Of a stretch of DNA of 57,125 nucleotides, positions 310 to 57,125 are shown piece by piece. Location: positions 1-57,125 of the forward strand of contig JASBSN010000040.1 of the NCBI GenBank assembly GCA_030148915.1. The letters run 5' to 3'. The translations under genes were made by a program, and so were the position numbers. The notes under the pieces were generated by a model. The model was not told where the DNA came from. It worked only from the letters and a program-made list of their open reading frames with translations, and ran no database searches. This DNA comes from Thiogranum sp. Lineage in GTDB: Bacteria; Pseudomonadota; Gammaproteobacteria; DSM-19610. Numbering within the stretch: the stretch's first letter is position 1; each line of letters opens with the position of its first letter.

Positions 310-392
310 GAGGTCCCGTCGGGTAGGCGCTCGATGGTGCATGTGCCGCTTGCGGCACCCTAAGCCATCGAGCGCCTACCCGACGGGACCTC
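310..392 (-). repeat. Class B long hairpin, copy B1
   Basis: A perfect 28-bp stem (310-337 with 365-392) encloses the conserved apex, here read on the minus strand as GGCTTAGGG...ACATGCACC. Outer flanks on the minus strand (GGTCCGAGGT before, ACCTCTGGGCCTGGTGGTGG after) match those of copy B2 at 49582. The stem sequence itself is unlike B2 although both are self-complementary. It lies between convergent genes, 61 nt from hairpin A1 in opposite orientation. Confidence 0.85.
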
Positions 393-453
393 GGACCGGC
401 GTCACCAAAAGTGTCAGCTCTCAGCGCTTAAATGTACTCGCGGTTCGGTGCAG

Positions 454-538
454 GCGTGTTTTACCCGGTACAAGGTTTTTGGCTTAGGGCGCCGCGGGCG
501 GCGCATGCACCAAAAACCTTGTACCGGGTAAAACACGC
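454..538 (+). repeat. Class A long hairpin, copy A1
   Basis: A perfect 29-bp stem (454-482 with 510-538) ends in GGTTTTTGG / CCAAAAACC and is capped by the apex CTTAGGG-CGCCGC-GG-GCGGCG-CATGCA. The right flank CGCTTTATGCGAGGTGGGTGTACG is repeated almost exactly after A2. Open frames drawn across it on either strand are by-products of the palindrome, not genes. Confidence 0.87.
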
Positions 539-610
539 TTTATGCGAGGTGGGTGTACGCTTTGCCGCTTGAACTTTTGTACGACCTGTCTTTCTGAGCC
601 TCGCTTGAGA

Positions 611-690
611 GTTTTCCCGCTGCAAGGTTTTTGGCTTAGGGCGCCGGGGCGGCGCATGCACCAAAAACCTTGCACCGGGTGAAACCCGCT
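611..690 (+). repeat. Class A long hairpin, copy A2 (imperfect)
   Basis: Apex GGCTTAGGGCGCCG...GCATGCACC is conserved with one base missing from the apical loop region. The stem (612-634 with 661-683) keeps the GGTTTTTGG top but has two internal mismatches, so this copy looks partly decayed. It is a tandem second A element 74 nt after A1, with the same 3' flank (CGCTTTATGCGGGGTGGGTG). Confidence 0.8.
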
Positions 691-6781: not shown

Positions 6782-7804
6782 ATGAGTCGTACTTTCGATG
6801 TGGCCGTGGTCGGCGCCACCGGCGCGGTCGGTGAAGTCATGCTGGAGATCCTCGCCGAACGCAAATTTCCGGCGGGCAAAGTATATGCGCTGGCGAGCGA
6901 GCGCTCGGCGGGCAAACGTGTCAGCTACGGCGACCAGCAACTGGTGGTGGAGAATTTGGCCGATTTCGATTTCTCGCAGGCACAGATCGGTCTGTTCTCG
7001 GCCGGCGCGTCGATTTCAGCCACGTACGCCCCGCAGGCCGCCGCCGCCGGGTGCGTGGTGGTGGATAACACCTCGCAGTTCCGTTATGACGAGGATATCC
7101 CGCTGGTGGTGCCCGAAGTCAACGCGGAAAAAATCGCCGACTACACCACCCGTGGCATTATCGCCAACCCCAATTGTTCCACCATCCAGATGCTGGTGGC
7201 GCTAAAACCGATCCACGACGCGGTCGGTATCGAGCGGATCAACGTCTGTACTTATCAGGCGGTGTCCGGCACCGGCAAGGAAGCCATGGAAGAGCTTGCA
7301 AAACAAACCGCCAACCTGTTGAATGCAAAACCCATTGAATGTGAGGTCTATGCCAAGCAGATCGCCTTCAATGTGTTGCCGCACATCGATGTATTCCAGG
7401 ACAACGGCTACACCAAGGAAGAAATGAAAATGGTCTGGGAGACGCACAAAATCATGGCGGACGCTTCCATACAGGTCAATCCGACCGCGGTGCGTGTGCC
7501 GGTGTTTTTCGGTCACTCCGAGGCCCTGCACATCGAAACCCGCGACAAACTGAGCGCCGCCGACTGCCGTCAACTGCTGCGCGCAGCCCCGGGCGTGAAG
7601 GTTCTGGATCAGCACGTCGATGGCGGTTATCCGACCGCGGTTTCCGAAGGCGCCGGCAACGACCCGGTGTACGTAGGTCGCATTCGTGAAGATATCTCCC
7701 ATCCCAGAGGTTTAGATTTATGGGTGGTCGCCGATAATGTGCGCAAAGGGGCAGCCCTGAACAGTATTCAGATTGCTGAAATACTGGTGAAAAACCACCT
7801 CTGA
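6782..7804 (+). CDS. asd: Aspartate-semialdehyde dehydrogenase
   Basis: Asd (340 aa) reduces aspartyl phosphate to aspartate semialdehyde for lysine, threonine, methionine and diaminopimelate synthesis. Visible: the N-terminal nucleotide-binding motif VVGATGAVGEVML, the catalytic cysteine in IIANPNCSTIQML, and the substrate-binding histidine segment RVPVFFGHSEA. A strong ribosome site (CAGGAG) precedes the ATG. The leuB-asd-fimV order is a conserved gammaproteobacterial arrangement. Confidence 0.97.
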   Translation: MSRTFDVAVVGATGAVGEVMLEILAERKFPAGKVYALASERSAGKRVSYGDQQLVVENLADFDFSQAQIGLFSAGASISATYAPQAAAAGCVVVDNTSQFRYDEDIPLVVPEVNAEKIADYTTRGIIANPNCSTIQMLVALKPIHDAVGIERINVCTYQAVSGTGKEAMEELAKQTANLLNAKPIECEVYAKQIAFNVLPHIDVFQDNGYTKEEMKMVWETHKIMADASIQVNPTAVRVPVFFGHSEALHIETRDKLSAADCRQLLRAAPGVKVLDQHVDGGYPTAVSEGAGNDPVYVGRIREDISHPRGLDLWVVADNVRKGAALNSIQIAEILVKNHL

Positions 7805-14813: not shown

Positions 14814-14970
14814 GGCTAAAACCTGTACCGGCGGCTCGGTTGCCGCCAATTTCGCAGGGTGATTCTCGCGTCCTGAGGGACCAAAGTGACCCCGGATTCG
14901 TACCGATGCGGGCCTGGAATTGGAGCCACCGGTGGTTTTGATGTTTTCGTGTCATTCTGCGTTGGCGCAG

Positions 14971-15055
14971 GCAGGTTTCGAGCGTTGCCTGGTTTTTGGC
15001 TTAGGGCGCCGCAAGCGGTGCATGCACCAAAAACCCGGCAACGCTCGAAACCCGC
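14971..15055 (+). repeat. Class A long hairpin, copy A3 (inside the respiratory operon)
   Basis: Stem 14971-14999 with 15027-15055 has only two mismatches. Apex is GGCTTAGGG-CGCCGC-AA-GCGGTG-CATGCACC, in which a G-T pair replaces a G-C pair of other copies. No class B partner is seen nearby. It fills most of the 292-nt gap between the two same-strand genes for the NapG-like and NapH proteins, so it would be transcribed in the operon mRNA. Nothing else is recognisable in this gap. Confidence 0.85.
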
Positions 15056-15105
15056 TTGATGCAAGCGGGCGCTACTATTCGTTCTGTGAATTTTTATCGG
15101 CTTCA

Positions 15106-49413: not shown

Positions 49414-49438
49414 CGTCAGTCGAGACCCGAGCCCCAAA

Positions 49439-49523
49439 GCGGGTTGCACCCGATACCGGGTTTTTGGTGCATGCGCCGCTCGCGGCGCCCTAAGCCAAAA
49501 ACCCGGTATCGGGTGCAACCCGC
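49439..49523 (-). repeat. Class A long hairpin, copy A4
   Basis: A perfect 29-bp stem (49439-49467 with 49495-49523) topped by GGTTTTTGG/CCAAAAACC. On the minus strand the apex reads GGCTTAGGG-CGCCGC-GA-GCGGCG-CATGCACC. Stem sequence differs from A1 and A3 yet remains fully complementary. 58 nt from B2, in opposite orientation. The 360-nt gap it fills lies between convergent genes (symporter and fabI); apart from the two hairpins nothing is recognisable. Confidence 0.87.
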
Positions 49524-49581
49524 CTGCATCACGGGCAGGGTATGCCGGGGGACGTCTGGAAAGCCACCGTGGTTTCGGTCC

Positions 49582-49664
49582 GAGGTTCAGCCGCGAAGCC
49601 CCTCGACGGCTTAGGGCGCCGCGAGCGGCACATGCACCGTCGAGGGGCTGCGCGACTGAACCTC
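49582..49664 (+). repeat. Class B long hairpin, copy B2
   Basis: Stem of 28 bp with two mismatches (49582-49609 with 49637-49664). Apex GGCTTAGGG-CGCCGC-GA-GCGGCA-CATGCACC. Flanks GGTCCGAGGTTCAG before and CTGAACCTCTACGTCTGGTGG after correspond to those of B1 (minus strand). Confidence 0.85.
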
Positions 49665-56820: not shown

Positions 56821-56862
56821 GGCTCAAAGTAAGCAGCGCTACAGTACTACCCGAACCTAAAA

Positions 56863-56949
56863 GCGGTTTACGACCGGGCAGGAGTTTTTTGGTGCATGTA
56901 CCGCTCGCGGCACCCTAAGCCAAAAAACTCCTGCCCGGTCGAAAACCGC
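56863..56949 (-). repeat. Class A long hairpin, copy A5
   Basis: 30-bp stem (56863-56892 with 56920-56949), one mismatch. On the minus strand the apex reads GGCTTAGGG-TGCCGC-GA-GCGGTA-CATGCACC, where T-A replaces C-G at the first apical pair. 49 nt from B3, orientation opposite. Located 42 bp after the ABC operon. Confidence 0.87.
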
Positions 56950-56998
56950 CTGCACCGAAGCCCGAGGGCAATAGTGAAACAGCCGGTGGCTTCGTTCC

Positions 56999-57081
56999 GA
57001 GGTTGAGCCGGGCGGACCCGGGAGGGCGTTGGGGGGCGCCCGCGGCACAAGCCCCCTCGGGGGTCCGCCCCGGTAAACCTC
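56999..57081 (+). repeat. Class B long hairpin, degenerate copy B3
   Basis: Imperfect stem (56999-57026 with 57054-57081, several mismatches). Outer flanks TTCCGAGGTTGAG before and AACCTCTGGG after match B1/B2. The apex (GGCGTTGGGGGGCGCCCGCGG...ACAAGCC) has lost the GGCTTAGGG and CATGCACC words, so this copy looks decayed. The remainder of the window holds no gene. Confidence 0.7.
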
Positions 57082-57125
57082 TGGGTTTGGCGCGGGCTGA
57101 ACTGGCGGTGCCAAACTTACGGGTG

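Follow-up and report, generated by a model that had tools for sequence, protein, structure and literature searches.

A conserved tip on drifting, self-complementary arms: an intergenic hairpin family in Thiogranum

Introduction

Base pairs that covary are usually read as strong support for selection on an RNA fold. Palindromic elements are built in several ways. The attC sites of integrons carry conserved ends and a variable tip and have an integrase nearby; by a reading of the two layouts, this is the opposite of the hairpins described here. Mitochondrial double-hairpin elements are also reported from Allomyces (cited in PMC2800124), and BIME/REP palindromic units are reportedly the subject of PMC2817692.

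The closest described systems are bacterial. REPs, which include the GTAG and CGTC superfamilies, are 20–40 bp long and end in a tetranucleotide tag, and BIME/REP units are intergenic, lie mostly in convergent or unidirectional gaps, build alternating composites and form families that differ between species (PMC3733652). REPINs, as described for Pseudomonas fluorescens SBW25, consist of a REP doublet that folds into one hairpin. An invariant 16-mer marks each outer end, and the spacer between them is less conserved but can still form a hairpin, with frequent compensatory changes (PMC3116915). Repetitive hairpin and double-hairpin elements of mitochondria are described as dispersed, single or double and suspected of mobility, and those of sponges as having conserved stems and variable loops (PMC2800124).

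Paired arms may also be kept at the level of DNA. Template switching homogenises the arms of inverted repeats and inverts their spacers in yeast, the inverted spacers being just 2–5 bp long (PMC8604942). It has further been put forward as a source of perfect stems, which it would also maintain, and of compensatory changes; in a test on rRNA, loop inversions and multiple compensatory changes rose above the control, while single compensatory changes did not (PMC8794818).

Here we describe a hairpin family found in a window of 57,125 nt, which is one of the 135 contigs of a Thiogranum assembly (3.22 Mb) that was searched as a whole.

Results

Hairpins of the window and their number in the genome

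The original prediction described seven clear hairpins and one degenerate copy, with a near-invariant tip, divergent self-complementary arms and an unpaired, conserved internal loop. This description holds, and the seven exact apex copies and the degenerate class A copy at the contig end were recovered at the positions below. It had missed that the tip sits on two arm classes (A, approximately GAGGTTCAGCCGGGTAGGCCCTCGAT; B, approximately GCGGGTTTCAGCCGGTNCAGGGTTTTT; consensus read by eye) and that doublets are frequent.

310–392, minus strand: class A hairpin (apex 336–366; arms of 26 bp, zero mismatches)
393–451, no strand: linker that separates hairpins A and B of this doublet (from the composite alignment)
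452–540, plus strand: class B hairpin (apex 481–511; arms of 29 bp, one non-Watson-Crick G.T pair near the base)
616–679, plus strand: class B hairpin, third in the row (apex 633–662, 30 nt; left arm degenerate past 17 bp)
14968–15058, plus strand: single class B hairpin (apex 14998–15028; arms of 30 bp, three non-Watson-Crick pairs)
49437–49525, minus strand: class B hairpin of a doublet (apex 49466–49496)
49526–49581, no strand: linker of the 49.4k doublet (from the doublet alignment)
49582–49664, plus strand: class A hairpin of the doublet (apex 49608–49638; two non-Watson-Crick pairs)
56861–56951, minus strand: class B hairpin (apex 56891–56921; arms of 30 bp)
56997–57084, no strand: degenerate hairpin of class A, where the contig ends (by eye, this locus and the end of contig C97 appear to be one and the same; letters therefore unreliable)

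The interval that was read first, 310–690, contains three of these hairpins, namely A(-) at 310–392, B(+) at 452–540 and B(+) at 616–679. Window arms are 26–30 bp long with 0–3 non-Watson-Crick pairs each, except in the 633 copy, whose left arm pairs over 17 bp. Six of the seven exact hairpins span 83–91 nt and the degenerate-armed 633 copy 64 nt, and the predicted folding energies of the seven range from -40.0 to -77.6 kcal/mol over both strands.

The apex, GGCTTAGGG-stem-loop-CATGCACC, has 57 exact matches in the 3.22 Mb genome, against none for a reversed control pattern. A looser pattern with 19 fixed bases and at most two mismatches has 64 matches, and the distinct copies, with contig-end duplicates merged, number 66. 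The 5' part of the apex reads GGCTTAGGG in 60 of the 66 copies, GGCGTAGGG in four and another CTTAG form in two. When GGCTTAGGG was counted alone with one mismatch allowed, it was not over-represented in the window (14 occurrences versus 10.6 expected); the signal resides in the whole apex together with the arms, not in this single word. The contig-end pairs C2/C87, C55/C56, C53/C106, C17/C97 and C25/C37 finish in apparently the same copy, and the repeat seems to break the assembly.

Doublets and conservation by part

The copies occupy 43 sites, with one hairpin in 25, two in 17 and three in one, i.e., more than one at 18 sites. Eighteen of 19 doublets were aligned, the one at C55 being left out for insufficient flank. 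The usual doublet is A(-), linker, B(+), and tips lie 130–197 bp apart across the aligned set. This orientation was found in 10 of the 18, followed by '++' (four), '--' (two) and the reverse arrangement '+-' (two). Judged against the outer flanks, one apex is inverted in the six '++' and '--' doublets. The inverted apex is that of B in C14 and C58 and that of A in C25, C51, C89 and C97, with the C25 and C97 cases sitting at contig ends. Within the linker of one doublet (locus L110, G000:C25) lies a 14-nt tandem repeat of about CTTGGAAGTACYGC, with GGAAGTAC at 104, 118 and 132.

Mean pairwise identity is 97–99% in the tip (9+8 nt), a figure that overstates its conservation because the copies were gathered mainly through the tip. 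It is about 65% in the arms and 49% in the linker (four of the 18 aligned doublets omitted), and in the flanks 35–45% at 29–45 nt from the tip and about 28% at 46–70 nt. With linkers just 49% identical between copies, the suggestion that the fold was generated recently is not supported.

A search with the class B arm only, allowing three mismatches, returned 33 places in the own genome. According to our tally these comprise 25 tipped hairpins, one degenerate tip at a contig end (C113), two hairpins with the tip deleted or shortened (C121 and C2:89222) and four places without such a hairpin; C106:2959 is not among the 32 places examined or already known. Since 25 of the 33 places hold a tipped hairpin, the tip is present on the majority of B-type hairpins. 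Chimeric hairpins, in which an A-type arm faces an arm of another kind, occur at C7:3532, C118:10399 and C51:87710, and in the congener G001 at C46:13707 and C101:40084. They would arise by crossing-over at the tip, which is the longest stretch common to most copies.

Pairing and covariation of the arms

Covariation was measured on 46 of 56 extracted copies, the rest lacking flank, being chimeric or starting a contig. The 31 class B copies gave 162 cells changed on both sides of a pair, versus a shuffled mean of 41.7 and at most 50 in slid registers. In the 15 class A copies there were 78 such cells, versus 19.1 in shuffles and at most 11 in slid registers, and in neither class did any of 500 shuffles reach the observed value. 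In RNAalifold structures, both-sided changes affect 20 of 32 pairs in class B and 23 of 34 in class A (31 and 15 copies). The covariation that the original prediction had called visible by eye is thus borne out, as it exceeds every shuffled and slid control. Columns 35–87 of class B hold GC 12 times, AU seven, CG six and UA six times, and columns 37–85 hold AU 11, CG nine, GC nine and UA two times, in both cases with all four pair types and no intermediate.

Arm statistics were taken from the 53 of 66 copies (20 A, 33 B) in which the first 24 arm pairs are readable. The 13 dropped copies are three chimeras (L003, L054, L091), five at contig ends or starts (L023, L025, L027, L038, L094), three with contig-cut arms (L002, L024, L034), the degenerate 633 copy and L093, which has a third arm type. 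Pairing is strict, with Watson-Crick pairs in 1227 of 1272 arm cells, and in 274 of the 1272 both bases differ from those of the class consensus but still form a Watson-Crick pair. The other 45 cells are six wobbles on the GGCTTAGGG strand, 18 wobbles on the other strand and 21 other combinations. Between each copy and its nearest neighbour (46 pairs), 188 differing positions are symmetric, 33 one-sided and 16 other, and the three closest pairs of copies differ at two positions each, all symmetric. Wobble-type cells on either strand (24 of 1272) are rarer than G.U pairs in the seven tRNAs of the window (12 of 149; p=0.00015), a comparison that serves as a rough yardstick.

The wobbles are unevenly divided between the strands, with 32 on the GGTGCATG...CCCTAAGCC strand versus nine on the GGCTTAGGG strand (arms 18 versus six, apex stem 14 versus three; p=0.0004 together), although the copies are related rather than independent and such p-values overstate the evidence. 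Such a bias may be a sign that one strand is transcribed or under selection. The original prediction had read the covariation as selection on, or recent generation of, the fold. The covariation itself stands, but the step to selection does not follow from it: the rarity of half-changed and wobble pairs, the symmetric differences between nearest copies and the apex inversions fit copying from arm to arm better.

Genomic location

Genes were called with a simple codon-based caller on loci often of 0.5–1 kb, in which some neighbours are missing or cut. The hairpins are intergenic and lie 3' of genes. None of 68 copies falls inside a called gene (three have no called neighbour). Both neighbours were called at 28 of the 43 sites, which are convergent in 19 cases, '--' in five, '++' in two and divergent in two; the remaining 15 sites have one or no called neighbour. 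Convergent gaps are thus far more frequent at element sites (19/28) than in four stretches of the own genome (14/91; p=3e-7). Of 57 first hairpins met by the transcript of an upstream gene, 38 present their GGTGCATG strand (p=0.016). The layout of the doublets accounts for part of this excess, and a count by copy gives 33 versus 21 (p=0.13). Six contig-end duplicate rows are excluded from the orientation and site counts. Some distances from stop codons form a cluster near 93 nt; by eye these share no stop-codon context, and a fixed insertion distance was rejected.

A terminator scan of 240–780 returned one site, at 285–304 on the minus strand (0.7 expected), which lies beside the hairpins and overlaps none of them; the loop limit of the scan, 3–8 nt, would miss a hairpin of this kind. 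The 5' arm of class B contains a T5 run. A second repeat, with GGCGTASGCCAGACAAAAGCGC, was seen downstream of genes near hairpins in G000:C55 (~25.93k), C11 (~3.77k) and C2 (~22.85k).

Relatives and gain at individual sites

As the original prediction had proposed, a covariance model was searched in relatives. The class B model found related hairpins in five of 15 same-genus genomes (G001, G004, G010, G011 and G014) and a marginal match in a genome from a different family (G027, E=0.009). Exact tip ends were present, among 17 genus genomes including the own one, in G001 (four copies), G014 (one) and G004 (one) besides the own genome. All of these congener copies have a shorter central stem-loop, and in the best hairpin of G011 the tip has diverged. 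Among 369 sampled genomes of the class, one match lay outside the own genome, in G328, and its flanks look unpaired. A scan of GTDB contigs gave five Thiogranum contigs (from the MAGs MASpbin.12, BWSM_145 and BWSM_146) and six others with 6–15 of 30 flank positions pairing; one viral contig also matched, with flanks that look unpaired. A RAYT was considered as the mover of the family and rejected, as the presence of PF01797 in the 17 genus genomes (own included) does not track the hairpins.

At the first window site, the gap between the flanking alignments is 525–546 bp in the own genome versus 27 bp in G004, 13 in G014 and 30 in G001. The second site measures 369–379 bp versus 93, 120 and 60 bp in three congeners, and the site at 14968–15058 measures 337 bp versus 56 bp in G004. 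The intact hairpin is absent from the congener gap in all seven comparisons, where the longest perfect palindrome arm is 9 bp. The G014 gap at the 49.4k doublet site (L157, G014:C49:7050–7650; gap 7297–7416) holds the 12-nt apex word GCTTAGGGCGCG and no hairpin. An apex word of that length was reached in six of 943 control stretches of the window, and the word is a possible remnant of an older copy; the mechanism proposed below for the arms is independent of whether it is genuine.

Of the four exact copies in G001, three share their intergenic site with an element of the own genome (C3/C40, C46:13707/C104 and C101/C51), and the fourth has no match among the loci compared. Some sites are therefore common to two species, with gain tested directly at the window sites only. 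The shared G001 sites could reflect a function that was retained, copies that are old, or a hot spot of insertion. The orthologous gap L112/L114 (G001:C101, G000:C51) carries chimeric hairpins in both species, with an identical 25-nt apex in opposite orientation relative to the genes. The G001 gap L113:16839–17236, orthologous to the own L093 (C104:20.3–21.1k), contains a different palindrome, TAGGTTGGGCTGAG...ACCAACCTACGG, and the same gap hence hosts different hairpin families in two species. At the sites inspected for target-site duplications, the intergenic sequence does not align between species.

Comparison with described palindromes

The apex might have belonged to a known RNA family. 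At the Rfam gathering threshold, however, the curated families gave only tRNAs in the window, and a permissive search of 1–800 returned scores below gathering, mostly to microRNA-like hairpins (best E 1.2e-6). REP/BIME elements had been named as the closest idea, and this is right in part. Like the BIME/REP units, the Thiogranum repeat is intergenic, sits mostly in convergent or unidirectional gaps and forms alternating composites, A(-)B(+) in 10 of 18 doublets, in a family that differs between species (PMC3733652). It departs from REPs in size, the complete window hairpins being 83–91 nt long, and in having no consistent terminal tag: in place of GTAG beside a short stem-loop, GGCTTAGGG is found in 60 of 66 copies. 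No link to a RAYT was found either, with no Y1_Tnp match in three hairpin-bearing congeners (two of them less than 90% complete).

With REPINs the repeat has in common the intergenic doublet, a variable part that keeps its hairpin through compensatory change and the spread within a genome. The conserved parts are placed differently, however. REPINs are described with their invariant inverted sequences outermost and the variable interior between them, whereas here the outer flanks are 35–45% identical, the tip is 97–99% identical and the near-perfect arms of 26–30 bp vary; moreover, the members of a doublet are separate closed hairpins rather than the two ends of one (PMC3116915). As neither the defining ends nor the transposase link of REPs and REPINs was found, we file the repeat as neither. 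Mitochondrial hairpin elements resemble it in being dispersed, single or double and suspected of mobility, and the organellar sponge elements, with conserved stems and variable loops, show the reverse of its layout (PMC2800124).

The original prediction knew of no family described in this way. This requires qualification, because the drifting, paired interior had already been reported for REPINs, in which conservation is confined to the outer ends (PMC3116915). A conserved tip on drifting paired stems was not found in our literature search, with most subscription journals outside its coverage. Drifting yet pairing bacterial stems are thus already known, and the conserved tip on them would be the new element of the layout.

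Discussion

According to our analysis, the family is probably, on the balance of the evidence, a genus-restricted, amplified and BIME-like intergenic repeat whose arms are kept paired by template switching and whose tip is kept by recognition. Template switching between the arms during replication would copy a mutation onto the other arm or erase it, leaving near-perfect arms, and would sometimes flip the spacer. Homogenised arms together with inverted spacers are the signature of this process, and the mechanism is therefore favoured for the arms: few half-changed intermediates are found between nearest copies (188 symmetric positions versus 33 one-sided and 16 other), and spacers are inverted in six of 18 aligned doublets. 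Arm homogenisation and spacer inversion are what the Thiogranum hairpins have in common with the template-switch inverted repeats as published (PMC8604942 and PMC8794818). The published cases concern individual sites, in coding genes of yeast or in RNA genes, whereas Thiogranum has a dispersed family with a conserved spacer. The length of that spacer, about 25–31 nt versus 2–5 bp for the inverted spacers in yeast (PMC8604942), counts against the mechanism, as do the uneven division of wobbles between the strands and the single compensatory changes that stayed within the control in the rRNA test (PMC8794818).

The tip would be kept by a separate force, most likely recognition by a putative factor. 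The part so recognised may be the internal loop CTTAGG/ATGCA on its short GC stem, and the factor might act in the spread of the element or on transcripts entering from upstream genes. The tip is far better conserved than the linkers, which argues for recognition of some kind, although ectopic conversion might equally have kept the tips alike. We tentatively entertain a bolder reading, in which the family is a REPIN turned inside out. The repeat would be mobile or regulatory, with the tip, read by a putative factor, as its sole sequence-specific part; the drifting stems would be perfected by template switching, and diverged copies would stay functional.

The pairing might instead be kept by selection on RNA, if transcripts of convergent genes folded the hairpin in their 3'-UTRs and thereby blocked 3'-exonucleases or were cut by RNase III. 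The location fits well, with 0/68 copies in called genes and convergent neighbours at 19/28 sites versus 14/91 gaps, as do the predicted folds of the seven exact window hairpins (-40.0 to -77.6 kcal/mol) and the wobble asymmetry of 32 versus nine toward one strand. The strand biases could, however, mean either weak selection on RNA or a transcription-linked mutation bias. Selection on RNA should moreover tolerate wobbles, which are about four times rarer here than in tRNAs, and the inversion of one tip in 6/18 doublets speaks against it as well. The one terminator site in 240–780 (285–304) lies beside the hairpins, in a scan whose loop limit of 8 nt would pass over a hairpin of this kind. We regard an RNA-based explanation as rather unlikely. 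The tip might also be mobile or converted itself, replacing the loops of older palindromes, so that its identity reflects recent spread or conversion and not function. Four of 30 listed apex core alleles, the commonest included, are common to both arm classes, chimeric hairpins carry different arms around one apex at five loci, and the apex centre is matched within nine of 18 doublets (6.3 expected; p=0.04). Yet the 32 arm-search places examined or known include two tip-deleted or shortened hairpins and no intact palindrome with another loop, and congeners retain the apex ends around shorter central stem-loops, though one G011 tip has diverged. On this evidence a travelling tip appears improbable.

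Spread of a REP/REPIN-type element by a RAYT acting on the tip would account for doublets that are mostly inverted and intergenic and for a species-specific amplification. The own genome also has a Y1_Tnp (RAYT-like) gene, and the GGCGTAGGG of four of the 66 copies includes GTAG. The other 62 copies have CTTAG rather than GTAG, the Y1 transposase gene (L119:3895–4608, G000:C100) is flanked, by eye, by inverted GGGTCAGAGTAAAAA-type ends unlike the hairpins, and G004, G011 and G014 (95, 88 and 86% complete) have hairpins and no Y1_Tnp match, which together make a RAYT a quite implausible mover. That the palindromes are artefacts of a fragmented assembly is suggested by the many copies at contig ends and by L023 and L027, which lie near contig starts with suspiciously perfect arms of at least 45 bp. 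The 66 copies differ in arms and flanks, however, other Thiogranum genomes also have near-perfect arms, and the best G004 match lies within a 518 kb contig; an artefact is already largely refuted and hardly credible.

Template switching on the arms, with recognition of the tip, remains the reading that we prefer. Taken alone, the covariation of these hairpins is no demonstration that the fold is selected. A single genome here supplies dozens of replicates in which strong covariation stands alongside spacer flips and few wobble intermediates. The family therefore lends itself to testing how far DNA replication can generate covariation without selection on RNA. Among bacterial palindromes it adds a layout in which the tip is conserved and the stem drifts, and it points to a putative tip-recognising factor in the genus Thiogranum.
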